A stretch of DNA of 64,000 bases. Origin: a virus. The DNA lies in IMG/VR virus record IMGVR_UViG_3300043568_000598, positions 21,431-85,430 of that record. The stretch is one strand, 5' to 3'. Every line of letters begins with the position of its first letter. Positions within the stretch are counted from its first letter, which is position 1. Below, piece by piece: positions 1 through 21,956 of this stretch. A program made the translations under genes and the position numbers. The notes under the pieces are model-generated. The model was not told the origin of the DNA. It saw nothing but the letters and a program-made list of their open reading frames with translations, and searched no databases.

Positions 1-1603
1 TATTTTCTTTAAGATACTGATAGTGCGATGGTGCAGTTTCCGTTAGAGAGTTGATATATTCTTTCTTTTGATCCCAGTAGTCCTGAGTTTGACTGGTATA
101 AAACTCTGGAACTGATCCATGCCTTGATTCGATCAACATCTTAACAACTGCCATTTGTGTGGCACTCACTGGTAGCACATGCATGCCTACTAAAATATCA
201 GGCATGCCGCCCATGCTCTGATCTGCAGGCATACTATGTGTTTGGAGTAACTTGATTGCCAAATCGCCAGCTGCGGTAGGCGGTAACTGGTTTAGTTTTC
301 TATCAAACATTAATGAATCCATTTCTATATTTTCAGTAACATGTTGCCAGTATGGAGTATCTCTGCGAGAGCTAAACACATAGTGATATGTTACAAAGTT
401 CTTAAAACTTTCCATAACATAGTTGGTTACATAATTGAAATTATCAACATGAATTTTATTGATCTGTTTGTTATGCAGTGTTTCGCACAGTTTTAATAGT
501 AATTCTTGAACACTCAACAAACCAGTGCTTTCTAAAGGTTCTACAAATGCATAGGATAGACCTATACCAACACAATTTTTAACCCATGCTCGATCATGTG
601 CTCCGTTTTTGATTTCAATTAATCTAAATTCGCAGAGTTTGCTTCTTGCCGGATTAAGTACCGTCATAGCCTCACTATCAAGATAGTCTTTGTATTCTTG
701 CAGTGCATCTTCTTTGCTGATAAACTTGTCACAAAAAACATAACCACTGCCGATTCTGTTATATAGTGGAATATTCCACACCCAACCATTGTTGTGTGCT
801 GTGCAATTAGTAACGTTTTCCATTTCAATTTCTTTAATAGTGTATGGAACGTGTGTTACCCATGCATGATTATTAGGCAAATGACTCGAATACGATTCAA
901 ACGGAACACCCATAGCCTGCTCCAGTAGCAATGATCTAAATCCTGTGCAGTCAATGTACAAATCAGCTTCGAGAGTATCACCGTTATTTAATTTAAGACC
1001 GCTAATGTACCCGTCGCCGTCTTTAAGTACTTGTTCAATATGTGCTTGCACATGCACTACCCCTGCCGGAATACACAGTTTATCCCTTAAAAAGTTGCCG
1101 AACAGTGTGGCATCCATATGATAAGCAGAATCATTGCGCCAGCTGAATCCAGGAAGCTGCCCGTCTTTGTTATCAAATATTTTAGTTTGATAAATCATAG
1201 GCATTGAACTGTATACACTTTCATAGAAATCGTTAACGTCTAGTTCAGGATGCATTGTTTTCTTAACATACCAATCTGTAGCACCTTGCTGTGTATTTTG
1301 CAAGTCTTTAATTCCAAAAGGATAATAAAAAGTTTCGCCTTTCTTATAAAAATCAGTAAATTTGATAGCTAATTTGTAAGTAGCATTGCAATACTCCATC
1401 CAGTCTTCATCTTTGAGACCCAGCAATCCTAGATACTGATTAATAGTTCCGAGTGTGGATTCGCCCACCCCGATAATTGGAACGTCTGGCGATTCAACCA
1501 GCGCAATTTCCATATCTGGAAATTGTTTTGATAACATAGCTGCACTCATCCATCCCGAACTGCCACCACCGGCAATAATAATACGTTTAATTGGTTTTTT
1601 CAT
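1..1603 (-). CDS. Flavin-dependent tryptophan halogenase-like protein (3' end beyond window)
   Basis: A continuous reading frame of 534 codons runs from an ATG at 1603 off the left edge with no stop, so the C-terminus is missing. Near the N-terminus is a Rossmann FAD motif (IIAGGGSSGWMSA). Residues about 70-82 read EYCNATYKLAIKF; K77 lines up with the catalytic lysine (K79) of PrnA/RebH. The family signature GWxWxIP is present as NNGWVWNIP. Family knowledge: these enzymes use FADH2, O2 and halide to make hypohalous acid that chlorinates or brominates an aromatic substrate. The substrate cannot be read from the sequence. It is the last visible gene of a minus-strand operon of oxygenases, and a second halogenase lies at 5723-7252. 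Family assignment is strong; free tryptophan as substrate is not implied. Confidence 0.88.
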   Translation of the reverse strand, partial: MKKPIKRIIIAGGGSSGWMSAAMLSKQFPDMEIALVESPDVPIIGVGESTLGTINQYLGLLGLKDEDWMEYCNATYKLAIKFTDFYKKGETFYYPFGIKDLQNTQQGATDWYVKKTMHPELDVNDFYESVYSSMPMIYQTKIFDNKDGQLPGFSWRNDSAYHMDATLFGNFLRDKLCIPAGVVHVQAHIEQVLKDGDGYISGLKLNNGDTLEADLYIDCTGFRSLLLEQAMGVPFESYSSHLPNNHAWVTHVPYTIKEIEMENVTNCTAHNNGWVWNIPLYNRIGSGYVFCDKFISKEDALQEYKDYLDSEAMTVLNPARSKLCEFRLIEIKNGAHDRAWVKNCVGIGLSYAFVEPLESTGLLSVQELLLKLCETLHNKQINKIHVDNFNYVTNYVMESFKNFVTYHYVFSSRRDTPYWQHVTENIEMDSLMFDRKLNQLPPTAAGDLAIKLLQTHSMPADQSMGGMPDILVGMHVLPVSATQMAVVKMLIESRHGSVPEFYTSQTQDYWDQKKEYINSLTETAPSHYQYLKEN

Positions 1604-1644
1604 AAACTGTCCTAACTCCCGTTTGAATATTTAGTTGAGTACTT

Positions 1645-2277
1645 TTAGATGTAACCTACATCTTGGCTATCGCCGTTTTTCCAATAATCTCTAAGAAGGT
1701 TAAATGATATGGAAATACGAACGTCGTCTGTTTTATTTCTTTTTACAGAATGTTGTAGCCATCCAGGAAATAATAGTAATTTACCCACAGCTGGTTTAAT
1801 ATCATAGTATTTTTCAGCTATGTTTCCGAATGGAAATAGTTCTTGTTGCATCCACGGTATAGCATTCATAAGGCTAAAATTACCGTCGTTGCCAGTAGTT
1901 TGGTAATAATAAGTTCCGGAAATAAATGCATCGCTGTGCTGATGCCATTCTTGACCTTGGTCTCTGCCAGTTTTGTTGATCCAACTGTGTCGGAGAGCAA
2001 TCGGCACAGGGTGCCATGATTGTGTTTGATCAATGTATTTTTTAACGTGTGTTTCGATGTATTTTTTTAAATGTGTTAATTCAAAATCTTTAATAGAGTT
2101 AGTCCGAGATTTGATATTAGTCTGTACACCGTCCTCCCAACCAGGAGGATTATTAAAAATATCAGTTTGTTCTATTATAGGCAATTTTTTTCTTATCTCA
2201 TCCTGCACTAGAAAAATTTCCTGCATTGTTCCCTGATGTTCGTATATCAATGTAGGAAATAGCGATACAATAGGCAT
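1645..2277 (-). CDS. Putative 2OG-Fe(II) oxygenase (Oxy_5-like)
   Basis: This 210-residue protein looks like the phage 2-oxoglutarate/Fe(II) dioxygenase group (2OG-FeII_Oxy_5 type). The iron site is suggested by EWHQHSDAFISGTYYYQ in the middle, where this family has an N-x-H-x-H segment before SG-x-YY. The distal histidine and the 2OG-binding arginine are suggested by LFPGWLQHSVKRN followed by DDVRISISFNL. Such enzymes hydroxylate or otherwise oxidise proteins, small molecules or nucleic acids; the substrate here is unknown. The gene ends 41 bases before the partial halogenase and starts one base after the stop of the gene at 2279-2974, so it is almost certainly co-transcribed. Confidence 0.75.
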   Translation of the reverse strand: MPIVSLFPTLIYEHQGTMQEIFLVQDEIRKKLPIIEQTDIFNNPPGWEDGVQTNIKSRTNSIKDFELTHLKKYIETHVKKYIDQTQSWHPVPIALRHSWINKTGRDQGQEWHQHSDAFISGTYYYQTTGNDGNFSLMNAIPWMQQELFPFGNIAEKYYDIKPAVGKLLLFPGWLQHSVKRNKTDDVRISISFNLLRDYWKNGDSQDVGYI

Positions 2278-2278
2278 C

Positions 2279-2974
2279 TTACAGTCCTAAATCTTTTAAG
2301 ATTTTTTTACGTTTAAAATATTGCCCATTAAGCGCAAACGGAACAATTCCGACTTGTTTGATATATTCTTCGTACGATACAGTGTGCATTGAGATTTTTA
2401 TATCCGACTCGGACAACGGTATTACATGTGCTAATTCTTTACCGGCCGGAATTGTTAGGTCTTTAGGAAACATAGTTTTAGGAACCAACAAGTTTACACT
2501 GGTAGTATGCTGATATTTGTAGTCGACTACGCCGTTGACTACAAATGGTTTAAATTCGTCATCATGCCAGAATGTATTAGTGTAAAGAAAATTAACCCCA
2601 GTTTTTTCTTTGATTTTCCAAGGACTATTAAGTTTTAAGTGATAAAATCCTTTGAGATATTCACCCCACTGGCTAGGATGATGTCCCTCAGCATCGTCTT
2701 CAGGAAACCATTTTAACGATCCGCCCTCTGTTCCAATCCAATAGTCTTCCCAACTTTGTAATATAAATCCAGTTCGATATAGTGTACTCACCCCCGGACA
2801 TGTTTTCATAGTACCGCGCATAGGACCTTGATGTTTAACTGTCGTGGGTAAGTTTTTCCAAAAACTAGGTAATCTTTCTTCCGCATATAAAATAGGAAAT
2901 AGTGTTTCTACTTCGGGATTGGCGGTGAAACAATCTAATACAATTTTTGATTTTTTAAAAAAGAATGAAAACAT
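2279..2974 (-). CDS. Uncharacterised phage protein, divergent member of a three-paralog family
   Basis: No enzymatic function is recognised in this 231-residue protein. It looks like a divergent paralog of the two genes upstream: all three have a P-x-FW/WY-K segment near residue 35, a central segment with a YRTGFIL/YVIRATYE-like stretch, a turn followed by GVVDYKYQH/GVVDTDKHD, and a C-terminal P-x-G-(K/D)-x-L-x-x-VIP/VFP motif (here IPAGKELAHVIPLSE). It lacks the PPGYSC motif of its siblings, with KTGVNFLYT at that position. The gene sits between 2OG oxygenases in the halogenase operon, with 1- and 5-base gaps. The repeated family suggests the products act with the oxygenases, but that is inference. 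Confidence 0.6.
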   Translation of the reverse strand: MFSFFFKKSKIVLDCFTANPEVETLFPILYAEERLPSFWKNLPTTVKHQGPMRGTMKTCPGVSTLYRTGFILQSWEDYWIGTEGGSLKWFPEDDAEGHHPSQWGEYLKGFYHLKLNSPWKIKEKTGVNFLYTNTFWHDDEFKPFVVNGVVDYKYQHTTSVNLLVPKTMFPKDLTIPAGKELAHVIPLSESDIKISMHTVSYEEYIKQVGIVPFALNGQYFKRKKILKDLGL

Positions 2975-2979
2975 TATTA

Positions 2980-3690
2980 TTACCTATAAGTTTTTTTAGA
3001 ATGAAATAGGTCGGCATATATACCAGCCCAATAAGTACTAAGCCTATATTTAAAACTAGACCTAGCCCACTCGTCTTTATCTGAGATGTGTGTAATATTC
3101 ATCTGCCAATCTTCTCGCTTGAAAGGAAAAACCACCACTAATGGGTCTCCGGGATTGATAGTAAATGATTTTTCTTTGACAAGGCCAACAAGGCCAATAG
3201 GCTCATCGTGTTTATCAGTATCAACTACTCCTGGAAAAATTGAAAATTCTTTTCTAAATCTGTAATAGGGATCAAACAACATGCAACTATACCCCGGAGG
3301 AGTTTTAATATGCCATGGTTGATTTATTTTTAGATAATGATGCTTTTTGCCATCTTCTGCTTTGAACTGGGCTTGATGCCACGGATGTTTACCTACATGG
3401 TTGTCGGTATGTCTGCATCGATAATCAAATCCTGTAATAAAGTTTGCATCAACAAATTCTTTGATTTGAATTTCATATGTAGCACGTATAACATATCCAG
3501 TGGTCATGTAATCCAATACTGGCACACATCGTTTAATCGTAGGGGTATGAGGTTTGGTATATGGTTCAATTTCTGGTACTTCAATGGGAGTATCTTTATA
3601 CCAGTCTGGAATTACTTTCCCAGCAGGCATAGGCGGAAACATGTCAATTGCTTCTAAATCACTGCCGGAAAATGTTATTAATTTGGTCAT
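2980..3690 (-). CDS. Uncharacterised phage protein, PPGYSC/PFKRE family
   Basis: This 236-residue protein belongs to a family found in marine T4-like phages that is usually left as hypothetical. Visible conserved segments are PDWYKDTP near residue 28, TIKRCVPVLDYMTTGYVIRA around 52-71, PPGYSCMLFDPYYRF near 130, GVVDTDKHDEPIG near 155, and INPGDPLVVVFPFKREDW near 180-197. The nearest relative in the window is the next gene upstream (3687-4424), which shares PPGYSC, (V/I)(V/I)DTDK and PFKR-x-W. The compact beta-rich pattern could suit a cupin-like or jelly-roll fold, but no metal-binding set is clear. Its start overlaps the preceding stop by 4 bases, so translation is probably coupled. Confidence 0.7.
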   Translation of the reverse strand: MTKLITFSGSDLEAIDMFPPMPAGKVIPDWYKDTPIEVPEIEPYTKPHTPTIKRCVPVLDYMTTGYVIRATYEIQIKEFVDANFITGFDYRCRHTDNHVGKHPWHQAQFKAEDGKKHHYLKINQPWHIKTPPGYSCMLFDPYYRFRKEFSIFPGVVDTDKHDEPIGLVGLVKEKSFTINPGDPLVVVFPFKREDWQMNITHISDKDEWARSSFKYRLSTYWAGIYADLFHSKKTYR

Positions 3691-4424
3691 TTAAATTGTT
3701 TCTCAGAATGGAATAATTTTTTATATGCATTAAACAAATAATATTTTGATTTGTTTAGTATAGTATCTGCAGTGAATTCAGATTCCCAGTTGTCTCGTTT
3801 AAATGGAATAATTTGTACTAACGGATCGCCGCAATAAAATCTAACCTCAGTATTAACTTCTGTTAAGTATCCTACCACTGGAATCTTTTGATTAAACTTA
3901 TCTGTGTCGATAATAGCAGGCATGATACTGAATTGGTTTTGAAACAAGTAGTAAGGCTGCACCACTAAACAACTGTAACCCGGGGGAGTCTGCACTGTCC
4001 ACTCGGAGTTAAATCGAAAATAGTTTGTTAAATTTTTCTTATCTGTTGATCGCATTGGGCATGTACTTTCAGCATAAATGCCGACAGCATTGTTAGGATG
4101 TAGTCCCTGCATGTCATCAGTTTTTTTAGAATCATTTATTTTGTTGCGTACTGTATTCGCGGTAACAATATTCATTTTAGGAACAAAATTTTCAATCTTT
4201 TCACTGACTCTAACTTCGTAAGTGGCTCTTAGAATATATCCGGCTGTTATAAAATCTTCAACCGGAACACAGGCTCGAATACTTTTTAAAGCATTTTCAT
4301 CGAAGCTGTATGTGTCCTTGGCTTTAGCCATATTTGCATACCACTCTGGCAGATATTCTCTAGCCGGTATAGGCTTCCAGTGTTCTAATGCAGTCTTATC
4401 GTCTATGTTAAATTTAATCTTCAT
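3687..4424 (-). CDS. Uncharacterised phage protein, PPGYSC/PFKRD family
   Basis: This 245-residue protein is a close paralog of the gene at 2980-3690. Shared landmarks are LPEWYANM near residue 25, SIRACVPVEDFITAGYILRA near 48-67, PPGYSCLVVQPYYLF, AIIDTDKFNQKIP and CGDPLVQIIPFKRDNW. It differs by an insertion of about 15 residues after the first third, rich in polar residues. No catalytic motif is recognised. The ATG overlaps the end of the 2OG oxygenase gene at 4421 by 4 bases (ATGA type), which places it firmly in the same operon. Three copies side by side point to local duplication followed by divergence. Confidence 0.7.
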   Translation of the reverse strand: MKIKFNIDDKTALEHWKPIPAREYLPEWYANMAKAKDTYSFDENALKSIRACVPVEDFITAGYILRATYEVRVSEKIENFVPKMNIVTANTVRNKINDSKKTDDMQGLHPNNAVGIYAESTCPMRSTDKKNLTNYFRFNSEWTVQTPPGYSCLVVQPYYLFQNQFSIMPAIIDTDKFNQKIPVVGYLTEVNTEVRFYCGDPLVQIIPFKRDNWESEFTADTILNKSKYYLFNAYKKLFHSEKQFK

Positions 4425-5023
4425 CTATTAGATTTGTCTTCGTCTATTTCTATTAACCATGTGGTTAATATATATTTGTTTTTGTCCCCAATAGGAGGAT
4501 TTCCCCTGTGTGTATGAGTCCAATCAGCTGGCCATATTAACAGTTTATTTTTCTTGGGAACGATCCTAGTATTTTGATATAAAAATTCTGTTTCACCTGC
4601 ATCGTCTATATCGTTCATGTAAAGCTGTATCACAATTCTTCTTTTAGAATCCTCTCCAAGTGCTTCATAATGCCACTGATGAAAGCCACCACCTGGAACA
4701 ATTTTTTTCATCTTGATCTGTTCTACTTTATAAGATCTATCTTGTAGTATGCTAAACTTGTCAGTGTAAATAGGCATTATTTTTTGCCATAATACTTCAA
4801 GAAAATGATTTACATATTGTGGATGTAGTGTACTAATTACTTTTGGATCCAGCATATAAAGCTGTTCATCATCCTTCCAGTGTTTAGGAACGGTATCCTG
4901 TTGGTGCAATGATAAGTCGGCTATTTTATCGTAGTAGTTGATAACATCTTGAAAGTATGAGTTTTGAAAGTAGTTTTCAAATACGCCAATAAATCCTTGA
5001 AATTCATATTTTTCAAAATTCAT
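4421..5023 (-). CDS. Putative 2OG-Fe(II) oxygenase
   Basis: This 200-residue protein has the layout of a small prolyl-4-hydroxylase-like dioxygenase. Around residues 112-120 GGGFHQWHYEA supplies the likely first iron ligands. QLYMNDIDDAGETEFLYQ is the typical beta-strand segment that follows. LLIWPADWTHTHRGN near 168 gives the second histidine and leads into the strand that usually carries the 2OG anchor (KYILTTWL here, so the usual arginine is not obvious). The substrate is unknown. The first codon overlaps the stop of 5020-5685 by 4 bases. It is one of seven oxygenases in this operon. Confidence 0.75.
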   Translation of the reverse strand: MNFEKYEFQGFIGVFENYFQNSYFQDVINYYDKIADLSLHQQDTVPKHWKDDEQLYMLDPKVISTLHPQYVNHFLEVLWQKIMPIYTDKFSILQDRSYKVEQIKMKKIVPGGGFHQWHYEALGEDSKRRIVIQLYMNDIDDAGETEFLYQNTRIVPKKNKLLIWPADWTHTHRGNPPIGDKNKYILTTWLIEIDEDKSNR

Positions 5024-5685
5024 TCTATTTCTAACCTATAATTACCAGCCAACGAAATCCTAACATCGTCAGTGCTGTAAAACGGATATACTTGATGTTG
5101 CAACTCTGCAGGGAATATACAAATCTTTCCTTCAAGTTTTTTATCAACTGGAATAGGATAGTTATCAATTTTTCCAAGAGCATCAACGTACACAAACTCA
5201 AAATTAGCAGTGCGATTTTTAATCAAATCAGGATTGGCAATGTTATCTTTTTCGTCAGCTATCGTGTATGGAATAGTAGTCCATATAACAAAACTATAAA
5301 TTCCGCTATGATTGTGTAACGGCAAGAACTCACCGCGCCGTTGAAGATTTACCCATATGCGTTCAAGAGATAATTTAATTTCTTTGTTTTCAGCGTTTGC
5401 TACAGAATTAAATAATCTGTCAAAATATTGATATTTGTTCTCGTAGACACCTAATAATTTTAGTACTTCTTTATCTATCAAAGAAATTAGCTCGTCTGAT
5501 AATTTATAATTTATTGAATAGCCTTGTTGTTTTTTGTGATAAAGTCTTAATAAATCTTTAGACTCATCTAGCTCTGTTGAAAAATCCGTAAGGAACTTAT
5601 TTGTTTCTTGTTTTATTCGTTGGAATATAAACGGATTGAATGTATCCAAATATATACCAACGTTGGGTAGGCTATAAAAACTCAT
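5020..5685 (-). CDS. Putative 2OG-Fe(II) oxygenase (Oxy_5-like)
   Basis: The 221-residue product has the phage oxygenase signature RRGEFLPLHNHSGIYSFVIW (about 115-134), an N-x-H/S-G-x-Y-S core, and the distal ELQHQVYPFYSTDDVRISLAG near the C-terminus, which supplies the second histidine and the 2OG-binding arginine. It is clearly paralogous to the gene at 50734-51387, some 45 kb away, which has GEFNPLHNHTGLYSFVLW and LLNHSVYPFYSSNDYRISIAG. The two copies sit in different transcription units. Its own start follows a 37-base gap from the second halogenase, where no promoter is obvious. Confidence 0.8.
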   Translation of the reverse strand: MSFYSLPNVGIYLDTFNPFIFQRIKQETNKFLTDFSTELDESKDLLRLYHKKQQGYSINYKLSDELISLIDKEVLKLLGVYENKYQYFDRLFNSVANAENKEIKLSLERIWVNLQRRGEFLPLHNHSGIYSFVIWTTIPYTIADEKDNIANPDLIKNRTANFEFVYVDALGKIDNYPIPVDKKLEGKICIFPAELQHQVYPFYSTDDVRISLAGNYRLEIE

Positions 5686-5722
5686 ACTAATAATTATCTA
5701 AAATTAATAGCAGCGTTTGCAA

Positions 5723-7252
5723 TTATGATTGCTTACTGGTTCGACGAATAAAGTTGATAAAATCGGAATAAGTCATGTTCTCTTGTACACCACTATCTAT
5801 GATTTTTTGATACTCGTTAATAACACCGCTGACATCTGCTAATCCTATAATAGGAACGGTATTTCCAGAAAATACTTTGGCCGAAGTCTCTGGTGTGATA
5901 TGTCCTAGTCCGGCTAACACAAAGCTCCAGAGTCCCATGTCGGGGGCCGCAAATGATATATCAAGATCTCGATTTGCAGGCATTTGTGTTTTACACATGG
6001 TTAGTAAATTATCAACGAATTCAGTTTTGGTTTTTCCTGAACTAACATACTTCCAAAACTCACTGTCAGTTCTGCCTCCCATGTAATGAGCGATTAGAAA
6101 TTCTTTAGTAGCATCATACAATTTAGCAGTACGTCGATTATAGCTGTTTCTGCTGCCCGGATTCAGCGTGTCTTCTAACTTAGGTTTTAAAAATTCAAAA
6201 ACAAATGTCATCAGTTGAGCGATAGTAGTGTGTATGCTGGTAGCTTCTAACGGCTCTGCAAATGCAGCAGCGAGCCCGATTGCCAGACAATTTTTCTCCC
6301 AGACATTTTCTAGTCGTCCGGTGTCAAATTTTAGTACACGTATTGGATCAATGGGTCTGCCTAACGTGGTTTCTATTTCTGCTTGAGCTTGATCTGCAGT
6401 GATAAAATTATCATCAAACACATAACCGCAGCCCTTGCGGTGCTGACTCGGTATCTGCCACATCCATCCAGATGATTGAGCCCATGCAGTAGTGTACAAC
6501 TCTGGAATTTCATTATCTTCAAACGGCAATAAAAACGGCATTGCAGAGTTGACTGGTAAATTTTCTTTATAGCTGATCCACTTAGCATTTAATTTTTTCA
6601 TCAATACTTGTTTAAATCCGCTGGCATCAATAAAAAAGTCTCCATCGATCAGTTTTCCAGACTTTAGCAATACAGATGTTATATTTCCATTCGCAGAATC
6701 TAAATTTACATCTAACACTTCATCGTCAACTACAGAAACTCCTGGAGTTTTCAAAGTGACTTTTTTAAAGTATTTGCCAACCGCATGTGCATCGAAGTGC
6801 AATGCGGTTCCTATGCTGTCAAAGGAAAATGTTTTTTTATTAAAATTAGAAATTTTACGTTCTATTTTTTGACCTATGATTGAACTTCGGTGAACATTTG
6901 CTGGATCTGTGCTATGGTAGTAGGCGAAAATATAATCAACTATGTTATCTGATGCAGGGTTGCCACCGATCGGGCCCATATAACTTTCACCTACTGTTTT
7001 CCAATCTTTGTGATGAATTCCGTATTTTAATGTGGCTCCAGTTTCTTGGAAAAATTCCAGCAGATTGCAACCAAAGTCCCATGATTCATTTTTTAAAATA
7101 GATGTGAGCAGTCCAGTTGATCCTTCACCAGCACCCACAATACCAATAGCTGACGACTCAACTACAGTAAGAGTGTGTCCTAGGTTAGCTTTGCTGATCA
7201 TTAAAGCAGCTATCCATCCTGCGGTACCGCCGCCTACTATAACAATATTCAT
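5723..7252 (-). CDS. Flavin-dependent tryptophan halogenase-like protein
   Basis: This complete 509-residue protein is of the size usual for the PrnA/RebH family (about 500-540). It opens with MNIVIVGGGTAGWIAA (FAD dinucleotide motif, GGGxxG). K76 in TGATLKYGIHHKDW is at the catalytic lysine position. SSGWMWQIPSQHRKG contains the GWxWxIP signature. FIDASGFKQVL and AIGLAAAFAEPLEATSIHTT are the usual late FAD-domain segments. Only limited similarity to the partial halogenase at 1-1603 is visible, so the pair may have different substrates. A separate flavin reductase would be needed; none is recognised in the window. Its first base is also the last base of the stop of 7252-7884, so the pair is translationally linked. 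Confidence 0.9.
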   Translation of the reverse strand: MNIVIVGGGTAGWIAALMISKANLGHTLTVVESSAIGIVGAGEGSTGLLTSILKNESWDFGCNLLEFFQETGATLKYGIHHKDWKTVGESYMGPIGGNPASDNIVDYIFAYYHSTDPANVHRSSIIGQKIERKISNFNKKTFSFDSIGTALHFDAHAVGKYFKKVTLKTPGVSVVDDEVLDVNLDSANGNITSVLLKSGKLIDGDFFIDASGFKQVLMKKLNAKWISYKENLPVNSAMPFLLPFEDNEIPELYTTAWAQSSGWMWQIPSQHRKGCGYVFDDNFITADQAQAEIETTLGRPIDPIRVLKFDTGRLENVWEKNCLAIGLAAAFAEPLEATSIHTTIAQLMTFVFEFLKPKLEDTLNPGSRNSYNRRTAKLYDATKEFLIAHYMGGRTDSEFWKYVSSGKTKTEFVDNLLTMCKTQMPANRDLDISFAAPDMGLWSFVLAGLGHITPETSAKVFSGNTVPIIGLADVSGVINEYQKIIDSGVQENMTYSDFINFIRRTSKQS

Positions 7253-7884
7253 TAATATCCTTCTTTATTATCATATGTTAACATTACGTTCATAGCAACA
7301 ACAACTCGTAAGTTACCAGTTGTGTGTGCAGGCGTATGGTGATCAAGCCACGATGGAAAAAGTAACAAATCGCCTTCCTCTACCAGCATCTGTTTTTTGT
7401 CCGGCCAATACATTTCAGGCAATTCATTTTTATTTTTTGTTGGAATAACACTTTTTATCATTCTGGCATTGGGATTCAAAAATACAGTTCCAGAATTTTC
7501 GTTGTCTAGTGTTACGTAGTGTACAGCAGACCACTGTATGGTCCTTGGCCCCCCAGTGTGATCATGCGGAAATTGGGAAGTAGAATTAGTCATCATTCCG
7601 TACCAGCAGGTTACTTTAAAAGTCCACCCTTTAGAAAAATCAATACCGGTAAATTCTAAAAATTCTCGAATGTCATCTTCGTAAAATTTTGATACTATCA
7701 TCCATGGTATTTTGTGAGCGCCCGGAACATAATCAGTGTAGGCATTAGTCACGGTGTCATTGACTCCATTCCTAACATATTGCGGATACACATTGTCCAT
7801 GAGATATTTTTTAATCTTATCGTGATTGCGCACTTTCATCTTGACCAAGTTAACTGGAAATAACGGAACAGGAGTTATCGACAT
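7252..7884 (-). CDS. Putative 2OG-Fe(II) oxygenase
   Basis: The 210-residue protein carries QFPHDHTGGPRTIQWSAVHY around residues 105-124, in which H-x-D-H provides the probable iron ligands. It then has a strand (YVTLDNENSGTVFLNPNA) typical of the double-stranded beta-helix, and EEGDLLLFPSWLDHHTPAHT near 172-191 with the distal histidine. GNLRVVVAMNVML follows with the likely 2OG-binding arginine. This pattern is common in aquatic phage oxygenases. The substrate is unknown. It lies immediately upstream of the second halogenase and overlaps it by one base. Confidence 0.78.
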   Translation of the reverse strand: MSITPVPLFPVNLVKMKVRNHDKIKKYLMDNVYPQYVRNGVNDTVTNAYTDYVPGAHKIPWMIVSKFYEDDIREFLEFTGIDFSKGWTFKVTCWYGMMTNSTSQFPHDHTGGPRTIQWSAVHYVTLDNENSGTVFLNPNARMIKSVIPTKNKNELPEMYWPDKKQMLVEEGDLLLFPSWLDHHTPAHTTGNLRVVVAMNVMLTYDNKEGY

Positions 7885-7885
7885 G

Positions 7886-8596
7886 TTAGTCTATCCATTT
7901 AGAAAAATTATCAATGATTGGCTGCTCAAACTCATATCGATCAATAAAAAATAATAGTGTAGTACGAGGTTCTTTAACATTCACTTTGAAGGTATTTGGT
8001 CTATGCCATAGATTAGAATCATATGCTATTAGTCTATTATACGTGTTTCCTATCCGAATGGTTTCTTCAAAATGTGTGTGATTATTTTTTAAATCTTGTT
8101 TGTATTCTTCTGTTACTATACTGGTGGTGTTAAACAGTTTTCTAGATGGAAAATCAGGTACAGAAAAATCTTCTGCACCTTTCTTTAAGAAGATCGAAGT
8201 ACCACTATCAAAATTTGTTTCGTTGGGATTTAAATATACCAATCCGGCCAAGGTGACGTCGTCGTTGTGTATCCATCCAATGTTTGCATCTGCGTCGTCA
8301 TATTGTTCGTTGATATGAAAACTTATGTGTATTACAAATTGTGAAATTCCTGGGAATACTTCTCTGGCAATTTTTTTAGCAAAAAACACTGCAAAATTCT
8401 TAGTTTCCTCGTCGGTGGATTCTAATAAATTAATTGTGCGTTTTCCAGGATAACGATCCGATTTAGTATATTCTTGGTGTTGTGCAAGAGCTAACACCTT
8501 GTTTGGATTATTGAAGAAATTATTTCTACAAACAATTACTTCCTTTAGCGGGTGTTTAGTTTTATCAAAATTGTATATGGTCTGTGTATTACTCAT
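7886..8596 (-). CDS. 2OG-oxygenase-like protein, DUF6445-type
   Basis: The 236-residue protein resembles the DUF6445 group of 2OG-oxygenase-like proteins. It has a HISFHINEQYDDADANIGWI segment followed by HNDDVTLAGLVYLNP around residues 110-135. Here H-N-D-D stands in for the usual H-x-D. The C-terminal half has NRLIAYDSNLWHRPNTF with the distal histidine and EPRTTLLFFIDRYEF with an arginine. The N-terminal part (VIVCRNNFFNNPNKVLALAQ) is the usual alpha/beta lead-in. The assignment is from pattern recognition. The start overlaps the next gene by 4 bases. Confidence 0.65.
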   Translation of the reverse strand: MSNTQTIYNFDKTKHPLKEVIVCRNNFFNNPNKVLALAQHQEYTKSDRYPGKRTINLLESTDEETKNFAVFFAKKIAREVFPGISQFVIHISFHINEQYDDADANIGWIHNDDVTLAGLVYLNPNETNFDSGTSIFLKKGAEDFSVPDFPSRKLFNTTSIVTEEYKQDLKNNHTHFEETIRIGNTYNRLIAYDSNLWHRPNTFKVNVKEPRTTLLFFIDRYEFEQPIIDNFSKWID

Positions 8597-9174
8597 GCCA
8601 ATTTCCTACTAAGATTGAATACCATGGTAATGCGGCCTTCTGTATTATGTGTTTGAGGAACAACATGTGGTATCCACGACTCCCACATTAAAAGCAGTCC
8701 TTTTTTTGGAGTGATGGAAATTTCCTCAATATTAGTAGCTGTATCTCCTAACCTAGGCAACATGACAAAATTTCTAAACGGTCTTGGATCGCTTATAATT
8801 AACGGCGAAGATCCTTCGGGAACTTGAAGATATAGCAAACCAGATAAAATAGAATTAGGATGTGTATGTGACTCGTGATAGTTTCCTTCAAACATCTCAC
8901 TTACAAATACTTGTGTTTCAAAATTAATTTGTTGCTCGTCGTACCCTAGTTGTCTAAGGTAGTTTCTAGCAGTTTTATGTACAAGATTTTTAAATGGTTC
9001 TATGTCAGGTTGTTTTCCAAGCTGCATGGAAGTATCGAATGTATTTTTATAACCCCATCGGTGTCTTGCATAATCTGGATCGCTTAGGTATTTTTTAGCT
9101 ACAGGCAACATTGCATCTGCTAATATCAGATGTAATTCAGTAAGTACTGCTGTTGGAAAATGATACTGAATCAC
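8593..9174 (-). CDS. Putative 2OG-Fe(II) oxygenase (Oxy_5-like)
   Basis: This 193-residue protein is a textbook member of the phage 2OG-FeII_Oxy_5 group. FEGNYHESHTHPNSILSGLL around residues 95-114 has the N-x-H-x-S/T-H-x-N-x-x-L-S-G motif, and ITPKKGLLLMWESWIPHVVP near 160 gives the distal histidine. EGRITMVFNLSRK closes with the 2OG-binding arginine. The same family commonly accompanies structural genes in cyanophages and pelagiphages. No substrate is known. It overlaps the start of the downstream gene and the end of the upstream gene by 4 bases each. Confidence 0.82.
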   Translation of the reverse strand: MIQYHFPTAVLTELHLILADAMLPVAKKYLSDPDYARHRWGYKNTFDTSMQLGKQPDIEPFKNLVHKTARNYLRQLGYDEQQINFETQVFVSEMFEGNYHESHTHPNSILSGLLYLQVPEGSSPLIISDPRPFRNFVMLPRLGDTATNIEEISITPKKGLLLMWESWIPHVVPQTHNTEGRITMVFNLSRKLA

Positions 9175-9722
9175 ATAGGTCCTTGTGGATTACGTTGTAG
9201 ATCAAATGCCTGTAAATAATTTGGACCATCAATAGTCACGTAATGCAGAAACACTTGAATACACTCAGTTCCTTGAAAAGGATCACGCCAGTGGTAGGAT
9301 TTAGCACCTTTGTAAATTACAGCATCTCCTGGATTTAATGACACACTATCTGTTTCGCCATCGGGTTTTGTGAAATGTATAGGCCACTTATCACCTGCAA
9401 GATTCACACTTACACTAATTTCACAAGCTTCGGCATCGATATGAGATTTCAATTCGGCACCTCGTTTATACCATCTGCCATAACAATATGTGGGATATAA
9501 TCTTTCACCTACTAAGTCATTCATATAAAAAATCTTTGAAATTAGCAACTGGTGTACTATTTGACTATTGTATAATGCCGGTGAGCCGGCAACTTGTGGA
9601 TCTGCTTTAGCGAACGTTTTAATGCATTCTTTTTTAAAATTGTTTGCAACAATGCTGGCTGCGATAGGATGCAAAAAATCTTCTACTACAAAATAATTGT
9701 TTTGTTGTAAATCAGCATTCAT
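9171..9722 (-). CDS. Putative 2OG-Fe(II) oxygenase
   Basis: This 183-residue protein has KRGAELKSHIDAEACEISVS near residues 87-106, with H-x-D as probable iron ligands. VSLNPGDAVIYKGAKSYHWR near 128-147 carries the distal histidine (YHWRDP), and a final strand (IQVFLHYV) follows. The sequence YGRWYKRGAEL before the HxD matches P4H-like phage dioxygenases. It is the second gene of the operon, one base after the stop of groES and overlapping the next gene by 4 bases. Confidence 0.75.
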   Translation of the reverse strand: MNADLQQNNYFVVEDFLHPIAASIVANNFKKECIKTFAKADPQVAGSPALYNSQIVHQLLISKIFYMNDLVGERLYPTYCYGRWYKRGAELKSHIDAEACEISVSVNLAGDKWPIHFTKPDGETDSVSLNPGDAVIYKGAKSYHWRDPFQGTECIQVFLHYVTIDGPNYLQAFDLQRNPQGPM

Positions 9723-9723
9723 T

Positions 9724-10026
9724 TTAGTCAGGTTCTACAATACACCACACATCGGATTCTGGCAAACACCAATATATTTCGTTGCCGACGACTATTTTAG
9801 ACCCTGCAGCCGGATGGCATAAGATTTCATCTCCGGCCTTAACAGTCATTGGTATTAAAACTGCTGTTTTTTCAGAATATTTTCCAGGGCCAACTGCTAT
9901 AACTGTGGCTTTAGATGTTCGCTCGTCTACAGCCGCAGGAGCAAGTACAATACCGCCAGAAGATACTTGTTCTGGCTCGTGTCTCTTAACTAAAATTCTA
10001 TCATGCGCTGGTTTTAAAACTGGCAT
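9724..10026 (-). CDS. groES: GroES-like co-chaperonin
   Basis: The 100-residue protein is full length for GroES (about 95-100). It starts MPVLKPAHDRILVKRHEPEQ and has the mobile-loop region SSGGIVLAPAAVDERTSKAT with the IVL tripeptide that docks on GroEL. The second half (VIAVGPGKYSEK, KAGDEILCHPAAGSKIVVGN) is typical of the beta-barrel. In T4 the co-chaperonin gp31 substitutes for host GroES in capsid protein folding, so a similar role with the host GroEL is expected. It is the first gene of the oxygenase operon, with a TAAGGAG ribosome site just before the ATG and a perfect late promoter about 50 bases upstream. Confidence 0.93.
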   Translation of the reverse strand: MPVLKPAHDRILVKRHEPEQVSSGGIVLAPAAVDERTSKATVIAVGPGKYSEKTAVLIPMTVKAGDEILCHPAAGSKIVVGNEIYWCLPESDVWCIVEPD

Positions 10027-10074
10027 TTATTTCTCCTTAAATTGATTAACATATGCTCTCTTGGTGAAGTAGGG

Positions 10075-10082
10075 TATTTATA
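10075..10082 (-). promoter_or_regulatory. T4-type late promoter for groES and the oxygenase operon
   Basis: On the minus strand this reads TATAAATA, the exact T4 late consensus, followed by CCCTACTT. The predicted transcript has a leader of about 45 bases containing TAAGGAG before the groES ATG. No other promoter is obvious within the tightly packed genes down to position 1, so this probably drives the entire island late in infection. Confidence 0.75.
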
Positions 10083-10157: not shown

Positions 10158-12242
10158 ATGACTGCTCCTATTAAAAACCTACGAGTAATACCCCGAGAAG
10201 CCGATTTTTTAGATAGAAAAATTGGCTCATCTGGTGAAATCTTTTATGACCGCGATCAAAATACACTAAGACTGTATGATGGAAATCTATTAGGGGGAAT
10301 TGTTCTTGCCAAGACAGATTTAACCAATATATCCAATGCTGTGTTCCTAGCCAAAGCTACTTCAGCAGGATTCAGTGGCGGAGTGCAGTCAGGCGTGGCT
10401 GGAAAAATAGCCTATTATCCGTCAAATGGTTCTCAAGTCAATGACTTAACTGCTTTAACATGGTTAGATGACTCGACCAATACGCTGGTGTTATCAGGTG
10501 TAATAGATATCACAGGCCAAAAAAATCGCATCAGATTCCATTGGGATACTCTAGCAGATCTTAACGCAGAAGTATCTCCTGTAGACTATCACGGCATGGT
10601 AGCACATGTGCATGACACAGGCAAACTGTATTATGCTCATAACGGTGCTTGGGTGCCTGTGGCAGCAGAAAGCAGCCTCCCTAACTCATTTAGTACCATT
10701 GCAATAGCCGGACAGCCATCAGTGACTGCAGACACAACCGCAGATACTCTTACACTTGTAGCTGGTACTGGTATTACACTGACCACAAATGCTGGCACAG
10801 ATACCATTACCATTACAGGCACAGCCAGCACAGGCAATATAACCTTTGCGGCCAACACCATAGACAGCACAGATAGCACAGCTATCACAGTGACTCCGGC
10901 AGTAAATTTTGAATCAGATGTTGTAGTAGGTAATGAAATTGTATTCGCAGACGGTTCAAGACAGAGTACTTCTGCTGTTGGTGTACCAGGACCACAAGGT
11001 GAACAAGGTCCACCTGGGGCTTCAGGAGCAGGCACGGGCGATGTACTCAGTGCCGGCGGCGGCTATGTGGACAATAGGATTGTTCGCTACGATGGAACCA
11101 CAGGCACAATCATACAGGTCAGTAGTGCCAGCATATCAGATGCTGGCCTGCTCACCGCTACCAGCTTCAGTGGTAACGGCAGTTTAATCACAGCTCTAAA
11201 TGCCACTGAATTAACCAGCGGTACTATACCTAATGCCCGCTTTCCAGCTACTTTGCCTGCAACATCAGGTGTCAATCTAACCGCACTAAATGCCACACAA
11301 CTAACTTCAGGCACAGTACCTGACGCACGATTCCCAGAGACTCTGCCAGCAACATCGGGTGTCAATCTAACCGCACTGAATGCCACCCAACTGACTTCGG
11401 GCACTGTACCTATAGGTCGTATAGGAGCCACAGGCACACCTAGTGCCAGCACCTATTTAAGAGGCGACAACTCTTGGGCCGAGGCCACAGGGGGGAGTGC
11501 TTCAGACAGCTTTAGCACCATAGCGGTAGCAGGACAAAGTTCAGTGGTTGCTGATTCGGCTACAGACACATTGACTTTGGTAGCAGGATCAAACATAACC
11601 ATAACCACAAATGCCGGTACAGATACCATAACTATTGCTGCTGCAGGTGGCGGGACTGCATCCGATAGTTTTGCTACAATTGCAGTAGCAGGACAAAGTT
11701 CAGTGGTTGCTGATTCGGCTACAGACACATTGACTTTGGTAGCAGGCACCGGTATTTCAATCACCACTGATGCCAGCACAGACACATTAACTATAAACAG
11801 CACAGTCACAGCAGGCGCCACAGCATTCACGGGACTTAGTGATGCAGTGTCTGCTTCATTAACTATAGATAAGATCTATCTACCTGCGATCACTATGCTG
11901 GTAGTAACCAATAACGGAGCCAGTGCATATCGATTTGATCAATACGGTGCTTCCGACGATCCTACAATTTTTGCTATCAATGGTACTACAATAGCATTTA
12001 ATTTGCAAGCAACTGGACATCCATTTTTAATTCAAGATAACACAGGTACTAATTTCAACACAGGACTCGTGCATGTAACTACGGCAGGAGTAGTGACTAC
12101 AGGCTCCTCAGCACAAGGCAAAGATTCAGGAACATTGTATTGGAAGATTCCCGACACTGCATCGGGTAGTTATAGATATCAGTGCGGAAGTCATGCTGCT
12201 ATGATAGGAACTATCACAGTGAAAAACTTTGGCAGTATTTAA
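10158..12242 (+). CDS. Tail fibre/virion protein with collagen-like stretch and cupredoxin-like C-terminus
   Basis: The 694-residue protein begins with a short domain (residues 1-55, RVIPREADFLDRKIGSSGEI) that is common at the start of marine T4-like fibre proteins. A collagen-like stretch (VPGPQGEQGPPGASG) sits near residue 275. The centre is low-complexity and repetitive: three copies of an AVAGQSSVVADSATDTLTLV type unit and three of an ALNATQLTSGTVPDARFP type unit. The last 100 residues look like a cupredoxin, with GHPFLI, then TLYWKIPDTASGSYRYQCGS and HAAMIGTI, giving candidate His-Cys-His-Met type-1 copper ligands. It is probably a receptor-binding or baseplate-attached fibre. Ligand spacing (C-x2-H-x2-M) is shorter than in plastocyanin, so copper binding is uncertain. 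Confidence 0.8.
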   Translation: MTAPIKNLRVIPREADFLDRKIGSSGEIFYDRDQNTLRLYDGNLLGGIVLAKTDLTNISNAVFLAKATSAGFSGGVQSGVAGKIAYYPSNGSQVNDLTALTWLDDSTNTLVLSGVIDITGQKNRIRFHWDTLADLNAEVSPVDYHGMVAHVHDTGKLYYAHNGAWVPVAAESSLPNSFSTIAIAGQPSVTADTTADTLTLVAGTGITLTTNAGTDTITITGTASTGNITFAANTIDSTDSTAITVTPAVNFESDVVVGNEIVFADGSRQSTSAVGVPGPQGEQGPPGASGAGTGDVLSAGGGYVDNRIVRYDGTTGTIIQVSSASISDAGLLTATSFSGNGSLITALNATELTSGTIPNARFPATLPATSGVNLTALNATQLTSGTVPDARFPETLPATSGVNLTALNATQLTSGTVPIGRIGATGTPSASTYLRGDNSWAEATGGSASDSFSTIAVAGQSSVVADSATDTLTLVAGSNITITTNAGTDTITIAAAGGGTASDSFATIAVAGQSSVVADSATDTLTLVAGTGISITTDASTDTLTINSTVTAGATAFTGLSDAVSASLTIDKIYLPAITMLVVTNNGASAYRFDQYGASDDPTIFAINGTTIAFNLQATGHPFLIQDNTGTNFNTGLVHVTTAGVVTTGSSAQGKDSGTLYWKIPDTASGSYRYQCGSHAAMIGTITVKNFGSI
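11526..11746 (+). repeat. 62-bp direct repeat inside the fibre gene
   Basis: A 62-base segment at 11526-11587 recurs, apparently without change, at 11685-11746, an offset of 159 bases. It encodes the VAGQSSVVADSATDTLTLVA unit. A third, diverged copy lies near 10700-10760. The near-identity at DNA level points to a recent in-frame duplication in a receptor-binding region. Confidence 0.85.
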
Positions 12243-17742: not shown

Positions 17743-20700
17743 ATGGCACTAACATCACCAGGCGTACAAGTTACGGTAATCGACGAGAGTTTTTATACAC
17801 CAGCAGAACCTGGTACGGTCCCTCTTATTGTCGTAGCAACAGCCCAAGATAAAACAAACGGAGCTGGCACTAACACAGCTTCAGCAACAACCAAAGCAAA
17901 TGCTGGCAAAGCATTTAAAGTTACCAGCCAAAGAGATCTTACCGATCTGTTTGGAGTTCCGTTCTTTGAGCAGACAGCGAGTTCAACTCCTATTCATGGC
18001 TCAGAGCGTAACGAGTATGGACTATTAGCAGCATACAGTTTATTAGGTGTAAGCAACGCGGCATTTATTGTTCGTGCTGATGTAGACTTAGACGAACTTG
18101 CAGCACAAGTAGATGCCCCGGGAGCGAGCCCAGTAAACGGCAAATGGTGGATCGATACGCAGGCTACAACTTGGGGTATCCAAGAGTGGAACAGTGCAGC
18201 CGCTACCACAGTAGGCGGACAGAAATTTACTAACAAAGTGCCATTGGTACTTACAGACGCAGATTTTCCAAGCAAAATAGAAACAACTAATGCTCCTAAA
18301 ACTTCAGTAGGACAAATTGGCGATTACGCAGTAGTGTTCCGCACAGTTGAAGGTGATACTTCCTACGGTACAGCAGAAGATCTTGCAAGAATCTACTACA
18401 AGTCTGCTGGTAACGGTGGACTTGGAGATAATGCTCTAAGTGGTACACCAGTTGATGCAGGCGATTGGGTATTATTAGGATCAAATGCGTGGAAGGCCAG
18501 CTGGCCAGTGGTGATCAGCTCTACCTATAGCGGCACACTCAGTGGCACATTGTTTATTAATAACACTTCTATCGTTGCTGGATCCTTAACCACAATTAAA
18601 GATAATATTATTGCAGCAAATATTCAAGGTGTAAATGCACAGGTCATTTCAAATAAACTTTATATATACGCAGACGGTAGAAGCGGGTCAACTGGTGATT
18701 CTGCAACTGCTATAGACGGTCGGGTTCAATTAGACAACGGAACAGCTTCATGGGCAACTATTGGTATCACAGCCGGTGAATATCTCAGCCCTAAGTTGCA
18801 ACAGACTCCGCACACAGATGTGCCGACCTTCAAGCGTGGTGATAACACTACTACTGTAGCAGGATATGCTACAGGTTCTGTATGGATTAAAACCACAGAA
18901 CCTAATCGAGGTGCTCGCTGGAGAGCCAAACAGTGGAGCTCTGCTACACAATCATGGGTAGCATCAGAGGCACCGATTTATGCATCCACAAACGCAGCCT
19001 TGTATTATTTGGATCGCAGTGGCGGTGGCGCAAACATTTCAGTAGACACATTGTTTGTACAAAGCAACGCACAAGAAAACAGCGGATTTGACACAACACC
19101 AGACACAGCTGAATTCCGTGTATGGTATAGAAACGTTGGTGCAGGTCAAGGCACCAGCATTACATCTAACATTGTCAAAAGTGGAACCTTTACCGCAGCA
19201 TCTACAAGAACATTTACATTGGCTGAAAGCATTGTAGGGCAGTTGGCATTAGATGCAGCTAAAACAATTACATTGAGCACAGCTACAGGAAATGCTCCTA
19301 CAGGCGACAACAGCGATGCAGACAAGTTTGCTGCTGCTATCAACGCAGCTGGCTTCACAAACATCGAAGCTTCTGTAGTAGCTGTAACAGCGACTCAGAG
19401 CAGATTGGTAATTACTCACAATGACGGCGGCGATTTTAGACTCACAGATGGCACAGGTACTCCTTTGTCAACTTTGTTCACAGCCTATAACATCAAGACT
19501 AGAGCAGGTACAGAAAACTTCTATAACATCTCATTGGGCAGTGGCGCAGTGGGAGCAGAAGATCTTGCTACAGGTGCTGCAGAAGACTACTTGGTATCTG
19601 GATATAAACCTCTAGCTGCAGATGATCCGAGATTTGCTGCCGGACCTGATGCACCATTAAATGAACCAGCTGATCAACAAATGTGGTACAATCCTAATTT
19701 TGCTGATGTAGATATCATGGTTCACAACGGCAACACATGGGTAGGATATAGATATGGTGCTCCAGGAGCTAATACAACATCATCACCTTATTACGAAGCT
19801 GCAACAGCTACTCTGAGAACAGGTTACTTGCCTATTGTTGCTGCCAGCAATCCATATGTGTCTGGTGTTACTACATCAGGCGATCTATGGATTAGCACAG
19901 CTGATTTGGAAAACTTCCCAACAATTTACAGATACAACAGCAACTTAACTGATATCGGCGATGCTACACTGCGTTGGGAATTAGTAGACAAAACAGATCA
20001 AACAACTGAAGAAGGTGTATTGTTTGCAGACGCTCGTTGGAATACTACAGGAACAAGTTCAAGTCAATCAACTATAGAAGACTTGATCACCAACAACTTC
20101 TTAGACCCAGATGCTCCAGATCCAGCACTGTATCCTAAAGGCATGTTGTTGTGGAATCTTAGACGCAGTGGCGGCAACGTCAAGCAGTATCAAAACAGCT
20201 ACATCGATACAGCCAGCGACAATCCAAGAACAAGCTCAGCGACACTGGCAGGATCAGCATTTCTTAGCGGTTCTGGTCTGAGCATGGAGACTTATTTCCC
20301 AGATCGTTGGGTTACTGCTTCAGGCAACAACGAAGACGGTTCGGGATCATTCGGTCGCAAGGCACAACGCAAAGTGGTTACACAGGCGTTGAAGTCAGTG
20401 ATTGACACAAGCCAAGAAATCCGCGATGAAGAACGCAGAAACTTCAATATTATAGCTTGCCCAGGATATCCAGAAACAATGAGCAACCTAGTTAATCTCA
20501 ACATTGACAGAGGTATTACTGCGTTTGTGGTAGGTGATACTCCATTGAGATTGCCAGCAGATGCTACTTCATTGAACAACTGGGGTACTAACGCAGAATT
20601 AGTCACAGACAACGGTGATGACGGTGTTGTGACCTATGATGAATACTTGGCCACATACTATCCAAATGGATTTACCACTGACCTAAGCGGTTCTAATGCA

Positions 20701-21288
20701 GTGGTTCCAGCAAGTCACATGATGCTGAAGACTATCGCACTCAGCGACAATGTCAGCTTCCCATGGTTTGCACCAGCAGGTACAAGACGTGGCGGTATTA
20801 CCAACGCCACAGCAGTAGGGTATATTGATGCAGCCACAGGTGAATTCCAAACAGTTGCATTGAACGAAGGTCAACGCGATACATTATACGAACTAAAAAT
20901 TAATCCAATTCCATTCTTTAACGGTGTTGGTTTAGTAGCATACGGTCAAAAGACCCGTGCAAGAAATGCATCAGCATTAGATCGTATCAACGTAGCACGT
21001 TTAGTAGTATACCTGCGTAGTCAGTTGAACAAGTTGGCTCGTCCATATCTGTTTGAACCCAATGACAAGATTACCAGAGACGAAATCAAACAAGCGGCAG
21101 AAAGCCTATTGTTAGAATTAGTAGGCTTGAGAGCAATTTACGACTTTGCGGTTGTGTGTGATGAAAGCAATAACACTCCGTCTCGTATCGATCGCAACGA
21201 ACTTTATGTTGATATCGCTATAGAGCCAGTGAAAGCCATTGAGTTCATTTACATTCCATTGCGTATCAAGAACACAGGAGAAATTTAA
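17743..21288 (+). CDS. gp18: Tail sheath protein gp18, with large insertions
   Basis: The N-terminus (SPGVQVTVIDESFYTPAEPG, then VPLIVVATAQDKTN) and the C-terminus (ALDRINVARLVVYLRSQLNK, then ITRDEIKQAAESLLLELVGL and FIYIPLRIKNTGEI) are diagnostic of T4-like contractile tail sheath protein. At 1181 residues it is nearly twice T4 gp18 (659). The extra residues lie mainly between about 130 and 880. They contain several W-rich modules (GKWWIDTQATTWGIQEWN; GSVWIKTTEPNRGARWRAKQ; MWYNPNFADVDIMVHNGNTW; GDLWISTADLENFPTIYRYN) plus a beta-rich TFTAASTRTFTLAES region. These are probably surface domains on the outside of the sheath. It is preceded by a late promoter and AGGAG, and followed two bases later by gp19. 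Confidence 0.93.
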   Translation: MALTSPGVQVTVIDESFYTPAEPGTVPLIVVATAQDKTNGAGTNTASATTKANAGKAFKVTSQRDLTDLFGVPFFEQTASSTPIHGSERNEYGLLAAYSLLGVSNAAFIVRADVDLDELAAQVDAPGASPVNGKWWIDTQATTWGIQEWNSAAATTVGGQKFTNKVPLVLTDADFPSKIETTNAPKTSVGQIGDYAVVFRTVEGDTSYGTAEDLARIYYKSAGNGGLGDNALSGTPVDAGDWVLLGSNAWKASWPVVISSTYSGTLSGTLFINNTSIVAGSLTTIKDNIIAANIQGVNAQVISNKLYIYADGRSGSTGDSATAIDGRVQLDNGTASWATIGITAGEYLSPKLQQTPHTDVPTFKRGDNTTTVAGYATGSVWIKTTEPNRGARWRAKQWSSATQSWVASEAPIYASTNAALYYLDRSGGGANISVDTLFVQSNAQENSGFDTTPDTAEFRVWYRNVGAGQGTSITSNIVKSGTFTAASTRTFTLAESIVGQLALDAAKTITLSTATGNAPTGDNSDADKFAAAINAAGFTNIEASVVAVTATQSRLVITHNDGGDFRLTDGTGTPLSTLFTAYNIKTRAGTENFYNISLGSGAVGAEDLATGAAEDYLVSGYKPLAADDPRFAAGPDAPLNEPADQQMWYNPNFADVDIMVHNGNTWVGYRYGAPGANTTSSPYYEAATATLRTGYLPIVAASNPYVSGVTTSGDLWISTADLENFPTIYRYNSNLTDIGDATLRWELVDKTDQTTEEGVLFADARWNTTGTSSSQSTIEDLITNNFLDPDAPDPALYPKGMLLWNLRRSGGNVKQYQNSYIDTASDNPRTSSATLAGSAFLSGSGLSMETYFPDRWVTASGNNEDGSGSFGRKAQRKVVTQALKSVIDTSQEIRDEERRNFNIIACPGYPETMSNLVNLNIDRGITAFVVGDTPLRLPADATSLNNWGTNAELVTDNGDDGVVTYDEYLATYYPNGFTTDLSGSNAVVPASHMMLKTIALSDNVSFPWFAPAGTRRGGITNATAVGYIDAATGEFQTVALNEGQRDTLYELKINPIPFFNGVGLVAYGQKTRARNASALDRINVARLVVYLRSQLNKLARPYLFEPNDKITRDEIKQAAESLLLELVGLRAIYDFAVVCDESNNTPSRIDRNELYVDIAIEPVKAIEFIYIPLRIKNTGEI

Positions 21289-21290
21289 AA

Positions 21291-21941: not shown

Positions 21942-21956
21942 TAGTAATATTAACTC

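Follow-up and report, generated by a model that had tools for sequence, protein, structure and literature searches.

A late-type island of halogenases and oxygenases in a T4-like phage: a possible tailoring cassette for tail fibres

The island and its genes

In the stretch of viral DNA analysed here (64,000 nucleotides, positions 21,431 to 85,430 of the 85,430-base IMG/VR record IMGVR_UViG_3300043568_000598; hereafter, the window), a minus-strand operon of halogenase-like, oxygenase-like and chaperonin genes occupies positions 2-10026. An earlier note on this DNA had let the operon run from 1 to 10026 and had counted two halogenases and seven 2-oxoglutarate (2OG)-Fe(II) dioxygenases. The operon in fact extends beyond the window edge to record position 19,250, so that the whole island covers record positions 19,250-31,456 (~12.2 kb). 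Both enzyme types are indeed present, in higher numbers: the 15 genes comprise three predicted flavin-dependent halogenases, eight genes of 2OG-oxygenase type (counting DUF6445 and OxA), three dUTPase-like paralogs and GroES (Table 1). In the direction of transcription, from record position 31,456 down to 19,250, they are ordered GroES, OxG, OxF, DUF6445, OxE, Hal2, OxD, OxC, D65c, D65b, D65a, OxB, Hal1, OxA and Hal3. Six of the 14 junctions are 4-base overlaps, two are 1-base overlaps and three are 1-base gaps, the other three being gaps of 5, 37 and 41 bases. With 11 of 14 junctions overlapping or a single base apart, the earlier description of a tightly coupled operon holds, as do its GroES gene and its three paralogs of an unknown family, for which a fold is now predicted (see below).

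Table 1. Features of the island and its right border (window positions unless marked as record positions)
Feature	Description	Position (strand)	Family match and remarks
Hal1	VirX1-type flavin-dependent halogenase (predicted), 540 amino acids	2..1603 (-)	PF04820 3.3e-111; final residues past window edge
OxA	PKHD/PiuC-like oxygenase	record 20869-21411	outside window
Hal3	flavin-dependent halogenase (predicted)	record 19250-20872	PF04820; outside window
OxB	2OG-Fe(II) oxygenase	1645..2277 (-)	PF13759 6.4e-21; TIGR02466 81 bits, cut-off 62.5
D65a	predicted dUTPase-like (beta-clip) paralog	2279..2974 (-)	phrog_7084 1.8e-18; alignment A2, fold by model of paralog D65c
D65b	predicted dUTPase-like paralog	2980..3690 (-)	phrog_7084 3.6e-42
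D65c	predicted dUTPase-like paralog	3687..4424 (-)	phrog_7084; weak DUF6065 match, PF19541 7.9e-6, just below cut-off
OxC	2OG oxygenase, prolyl-hydroxylase-like	4421..5023 (-)	PF13640 1.1e-9
OxD	PF13759 oxygenase, H-x-H-x-G motif	5020..5685 (-)	PF13759 1.1e-9
Hal2	flavin-dependent halogenase (predicted), nearer bacterial tryptophan halogenases	5723..7252 (-)	PF04820 2e-93
OxE	PF13759 oxygenase, H-x-H-x-G motif	7252..7884 (-)	PF13759 3.5e-13
DUF6445	protein with 2OG-oxygenase fold (by model)	7886..8596 (-)	PF20043 3.6e-9
OxF	PF13759/TIGR02466 oxygenase, GTG start	8593..9174 (-)	PF13759 3.6e-20; TIGR02466 71 bits
OxG	probable 2OG oxygenase	9171..9722 (-)	weak PF13532 0.018, below cut-off
GroES	co-chaperonin	9724..10026 (-)	PF00166 4.7e-22, 78 bits vs cut-off 21.1; Shine-Dalgarno AAGGAG precedes ATG
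Late promoter	TATAAATAC	10074..10082 (-)	~50 bases upstream of GroES
gp10-like	baseplate-wedge/tail-fibre connector	10158..12242 (+)	phrog_677 4.6e-46; right border, outside cassette

All three halogenases score over the PF04820 cut-off. The best match of Hal1 in the PDB is VirX1 (6qgm, 8.9e-118, full length), and that of Hal2 is 9luq, followed by RebH. The motif set of the family (the GxGxxG FAD motif, GWxWxIP, the catalytic Lys and EPLExT) is present, the G, the catalytic K76, GW262-263 and the EPLE columns being invariant in alignment A3, and from their sequences Hal1, Hal2 and Hal3 are predicted to be flavin-dependent halogenases.

The oxygenases are more heterogeneous. OxA, OxB and DUF6445 carry the full HxD/E...H metal site together with the 2OG-binding Arg, and OxC (HxE, H) and OxG (HxD, H) keep the metal triad but show no clear Arg. 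These residues are invariant among homologs in OxB (H114/D116/H176/R187, 19 homologs), OxC (H118-x-E120, H172), DUF6445 (H110-x-D112, H198, R211) and OxG (H94-x-D96, H144), homologs of the last occurring also in cyanophage islands. OxD, OxE and OxF have H-x-H-x-G/N...H...R instead, the H-x-H-x-G motif being invariant in OxD (18 homologs) and OxE (25 homologs). The missing carboxylate might recall non-haem iron halogenases, an idea that we rejected as diagnostic: the solved PF13759 members 3bvc and 2rg4 (H-x-H-x-H) likewise lack it, so that H-x-H is a trait of the family and no evidence for iron halogenases. The model of DUF6445 (predicted local distance difference test, pLDDT, 88.7) matches OGFOD1, P4H, PHD2 and PiuC in Foldseek; by its model the protein is a 2OG-oxygenase fold rather than a coat protein, and its PHROG label ‘minor coat protein’ is therefore misleading. 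In cyanophage annotations, the labels of PHROG 1644, 274 and 3531 (‘minor coat protein’, ‘DNA endonuclease V’ and ‘ferrochelatase’) all fall on 2OG-oxygenase-like proteins. A ninth oxygenase, OxD-like (phrog_81), lies in the window but outside the island, at 50734-51387 (+), adjoining a DNA polymerase fragment.

The three D65 paralogs are predicted to adopt a dUTPase-like beta-clip fold. In the AlphaFold model of D65c (pLDDT 81), all 50 Foldseek matches listed are dUTPases, only the top one below E 0.001, and a D65 sequence profile ranks dUTPases first in the PDB, weakly (E 0.02). The paralogs retain the motif-3-like GIIDTD and the motif-4-like GDPLvQII; the Asp of motif 1 is absent (GYIL replaces AGxD, alignment A2), as is the PRSG of motif 2, and for this reason D65 is not classed as a dUTPase. 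A lone D65 homolog is encoded next to thymidylate synthase in haloarchaeal tailed viruses (L122:11851-12723 in HRTV-2) and is perhaps a genuine dUTPase.

Upstream of GroES, the octamer TATAAATA at 10075-10082 (-) matches the late consensus exactly, and the operon itself contains no further minus-strand match, in agreement with the single perfect late promoter and late timing of the earlier note. By itself, the octamer shows no enrichment across the window (three occurrences vs 4.8 expected). Despite this, TATAAATA is a credible late promoter, since ATAAATAY stands ahead of several genes on the plus strand, gp13 and the tail tube among them, at distances of a few to ~40-45 bases. Matches are also found upstream of GroES in three divergent relatives (L012, L019 and L047). 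Judged by sequence, the T4-type late-gene arrangement, with TATAAATA placed upstream, supports expression of the operon late and from one promoter. A related observation concerns ATAAATAY-N4-ATG, which occurs with this fixed spacing six times in the window (15883, 21993, 24386, 28017 and 33419 on the plus strand, 60003 on the minus strand) vs 0.23 expected from shuffles, a spacing of 4 being also the most frequent among related contigs. With T4 late-promoter geometry, such transcripts would begin at the A of the ATG, as leaderless late mRNAs.

To the left of the island lie long tail fibres, three C1q-type fibre genes (a label that is a reading of their C-terminal sequence, with no database match behind it) and a 206-amino-acid gene; to the right follow the gp10-like connector, gp15, gp14, gp13 and the sheath. 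The earlier assignment to a T4-like phage is right: the terminase is nearest those of Pseudomonas PA5oct-type phages (~54%), which does not imply a cyanophage, and a cyanophage origin was rejected on this ground. The 206-amino-acid gene stands between the C1q fibres and the island in relatives as well (L004:18584-19204 and others) and is replaced in divergent contigs by a pair of shorter family members. A conserved protein of 135-221 amino acids is encoded directly ahead of the halogenase in nine cyanophage islands (L116:9914-10408 and equivalents); the two families do not match, and their equivalence was rejected. In one contig, a phage GroEL-like gene (L134:54-1991) adjoins GroES next to a four-halogenase island. 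PADLOC found no known anti-phage defence system in the island, its sole match being that of OxC to a generic 2OG model.

Conservation and exchange of the cassette

The core order DUF6445-OxE-(OxE2/Hal2)-OxD-D65c-D65b-D65a-OxB-Hal1 is shared by more than 25 viral contigs, retrieved through Hal1 and Hal2 matches, down to ~59% Hal1 identity. Around it, OxC, OxF, OxG, GroES, OxA, Hal3, Hal2 and a fourth, shorter halogenase have been gained or lost. Ten of the 11 cultured cyanophage lineages with a VirX1-type halogenase encode it directly beside fibre or fibre-assembly genes, with two to nine 2OG genes around, and in six of these ten D65 comes next after the halogenase. Across five whole cyanophage genomes, chosen as top Hal1 matches without regard to oxygenases, 22 of the 43 phrog_81 oxygenases have a halogenase within 12 kb, vs 7.7 predicted by rotation (p = 0.0025). 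In other T4-like contigs, differing mixes of halogenases and 2OG genes occupy the same slot, which is bounded by fibres/gp10 on one side and nudix-gp15-gp14-gp13 on the other; some of these contigs add a carbamoyltransferase and a glycosyltransferase-like gene, the latter read by us as heptosyltransferase-like with no Pfam match. Moreover, all 20 contigs with a full-length relative of the C1q fibre and enough flank have a halogenase or OxA beside the fibres. Rather than homologs scattered without linkage, the synteny comparison that the earlier note had proposed thus returns a halogenase-2OG linkage, often with D65 and DUF6445, conserved across deep T4-like lineages. A cassette of this kind occupies the equivalent position in many aquatic phages. 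The window also encodes a NolO-like carbamoyltransferase (phrog_1601) at 54347-55816 (+), a relative of which lies inside the halogenase/oxygenase slot of three T4-like contigs (L140, L149 and L155).

Two separate identity comparisons indicate that fibres and island moved jointly and the neck genes did not. Compared with contig 3300015244_001378, the stretch from ~15.3 kb to the end of GroES at 31.4 kb, which includes the small gene and the three C1q fibres, shows 92-100% nucleotide identity, vs mostly 71-89% on both flanks, the drop on the right falling at the gp10-like connector; there is an internal mosaic at OxC/OxD/Hal2. In contig 3300012665_000316, the neck genes are 65% identical to 3300017917_000721 vs 47% to the present record, whereas fibres and island are 79 and 89% identical to the present record vs 70 and 66% to 3300017917_000721. 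All testable island genes are under purifying selection, the ratio of nonsynonymous to synonymous substitution (dN/dS) being ~0.02-0.17 in the majority of informative comparisons; a near-identical pair (L008) gives two high ratios, with almost no synonymous change beneath them.

Candidate substrates

We read the island as a late, horizontally exchanged tailoring cassette whose most likely targets are the tail-fibre/adhesin proteins of the phage itself, and we put the chances of this reading at about even. It draws on the conserved core order, the fibre-side halogenases and surrounding 2OG genes of ten cultured lineages, the island that encodes VirX1 itself, the clustering of 2OG genes near halogenases in five cyanophage genomes, the other mixes in the same T4-like slot, the neighbours of the C1q fibres, the exchange of fibres and island without the neck genes, the low dN/dS values, and the resemblance of DUF6445 to the protein hydroxylases P4H, PHD2 and OGFOD1. 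Among the targets listed in the earlier note (virion component, glycan or peptide), position and co-transfer favour the first, in the form of the tail fibre, as the substrate that we infer; its interpretation of a joint tailoring pathway is partly supported, the linkage being conserved. A wider proposal, tentative and with odds a little short of even, is that phages widely halogenate and hydroxylate their tail-fibre adhesins after translation, by a system exchanged as one cassette of fibres and tailoring enzymes, and that VirX1-type viral halogenases natively serve this purpose.

In such a scheme, the single late promoter would co-express halogenases and 2OG oxygenases, the former predicted to add Cl, Br or I to aromatic side chains of Trp/Tyr type and the latter possibly hydroxylating or otherwise oxidizing side chains, the chemistry at each site being conjectural, before or during virion assembly. 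The three dUTPase-fold paralogs might act as binding or scaffolding subunits without dUTPase activity. GroES, by conjecture, may aid the folding of island enzymes or fibres; halogenases are often poorly soluble, and their solubility on expression is a topic of recent papers. The benefit could be a changed receptor binding, or resistance to proteases or host countermeasures.

Several observations weigh against fibre modification. The fibre is proposed as substrate from position and co-transfer, and neighbouring genes may co-transfer through linkage alone, only two exchange events having been seen. No flavin reductase is found among the island genes, and protein modification offers no obvious place for the dUTPase-like proteins. 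Among the 11 cultured lineages, Shandvirus (S-B64/S-H35) is the sole exception, with a halogenase alone in the replication module, and more distant cyanophage halogenases (RIM44, 172 kb; Sf-CH3, 176 kb) lie outside islands. The Trp content of the fibres is mildly raised (2.2-2.9% vs 1.7%), a weak Trp/Tyr enrichment, and collagen-like fibres as P4H substrates were rejected, as no runs of at least six GXY triplets occur in the contigs scanned.

The resemblance of Hal2 to free-tryptophan halogenases could instead point to a small molecule, free amino acid or peptide made or tailored late, such as a halogenated derivative of tryptophan with an effect on competitors or the host, and a role of PrnA-like genes in antibiotic protection has been the subject of published speculation (PMC9964418). 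Such a natural-product-like pathway is, however, unlikely: no precursor peptide, transporter or assembly-line gene, as expected of ribosomally synthesized and post-translationally modified peptides or other natural products, is among the 15 operon genes, nor does the operon hold resistance genes; its intergenic gaps (at most 41 bases) are too short for a precursor, and the constant fibre-side location would be left unexplained. Late modification of the host surface (lipopolysaccharide or other glycans, outer-membrane proteins) might keep progeny from sticking to debris or prevent superinfection, but does not predict the co-exchange with fibres. The carbamoyltransferase of related T4-like slots, and the heptosyltransferase-like gene that we read in some of them, would suit it, yet both are absent from the present operon and aromatic halogenases have no obvious glycan substrate; we hold it to be rather improbable.

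Varying gene content between lineages, with Hal3, OxF, OxC and Hal2 gained and lost, and the frequency of 2OG genes elsewhere in cyanophages would also agree with a recombination-prone fibre-side slot in which independent auxiliary metabolic genes gather with no joint action. This explanation, to which we assign a low probability, is at odds with a core order fixed over deep divergence, with translational coupling behind one promoter, with the strength of purifying selection and with the recurrence of the halogenase-2OG pairing in differently composed slots. Finally, the D65 proteins, with their dUTPase fold and a motif 3 Asp that is mostly kept, as well as the halovirus homolog beside thymidylate synthase, bring to mind a pathway of nucleotide or DNA hypermodification in which they would handle the nucleotide. 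It is the least credible of the four explanations, and very improbable: a late promoter would act after most DNA synthesis, D65 lacks the motif 1 Asp and the motif 2 PRSG, and the operon has no kinase, thymidylate-synthase homolog or glycosyltransferase.

Relation to known systems

The same gene families have been treated in cyanophages as auxiliary metabolic genes, prnA and the 2OG-Fe(II) oxygenases being described singly, with proposed roles in antibiotic protection, nitrogen/2OG balance and DNA repair (PMC3037559, PMC9964418, PMC10452541), and not as a linked fibre-side cassette. We found no description of a linked halogenase-oxygenase cassette in the literature searched, which was open-access only, so that priority is not certain; nor was a statement of the natural substrate of VirX1 found there. 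Should the fibre prove to be the target, phages would be extending their receptor-binding proteins beyond the 20 amino acids by chemical editing, which would matter for host range, for the proteomics of virions and for biocatalysis.

The bacterial tryptophan halogenases RebH, PrnA and PyrH belong to the same family (PF04820) and have the same catalytic residues. Their gene clusters differ: 80 bacterial halogenase loci are devoid of the viral partners save for one OxC-like gene, as seen with virus-built profiles that distant bacterial oxygenases may escape. A bacterial source cluster was rejected, none being present in these loci and the bacterial DUF6065 genes examined being solitary. D65 shares with trimeric dUTPases and DUF6065 the predicted fold, the segments like motifs 3 and 4 and a distant sequence link to DUF6065, and is set apart from dUTPases by the two lost motifs and by its three diverged copies per operon. 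Protein-hydroxylating 2OG oxygenases (bacterial P4H acting on EF-Tu, OGFOD1, PHD2, PiuC) resemble the island in the fold of DUF6445 and in the PKHD/P4H-type families of OxA and OxC, although identities are ~10% and several island members have H-x-H-x-G/N in place of H-x-D.

The closest known system is that of VirX1, a crystallised viral halogenase from Syn10 (CPUG_00131 equals 6QGM except for the first residue) and the nearest solved relative of Hal1 over its full length, whose conserved fibre-linked operon makes its natural substrate a testable question in cultured phages such as Syn9, Syn10 and S-CREM1. Its own island, Hal-VirX1-D65-OxB-...-OxC-...-DUF6445-...-OxG, is homologous to the present one. 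VirX1 is ~38% identical to Hal1 and belongs to another phage lineage; its island has two halogenases and one dUTPase-like gene vs three of each here, and only the present island is a minus-strand operon headed by GroES.

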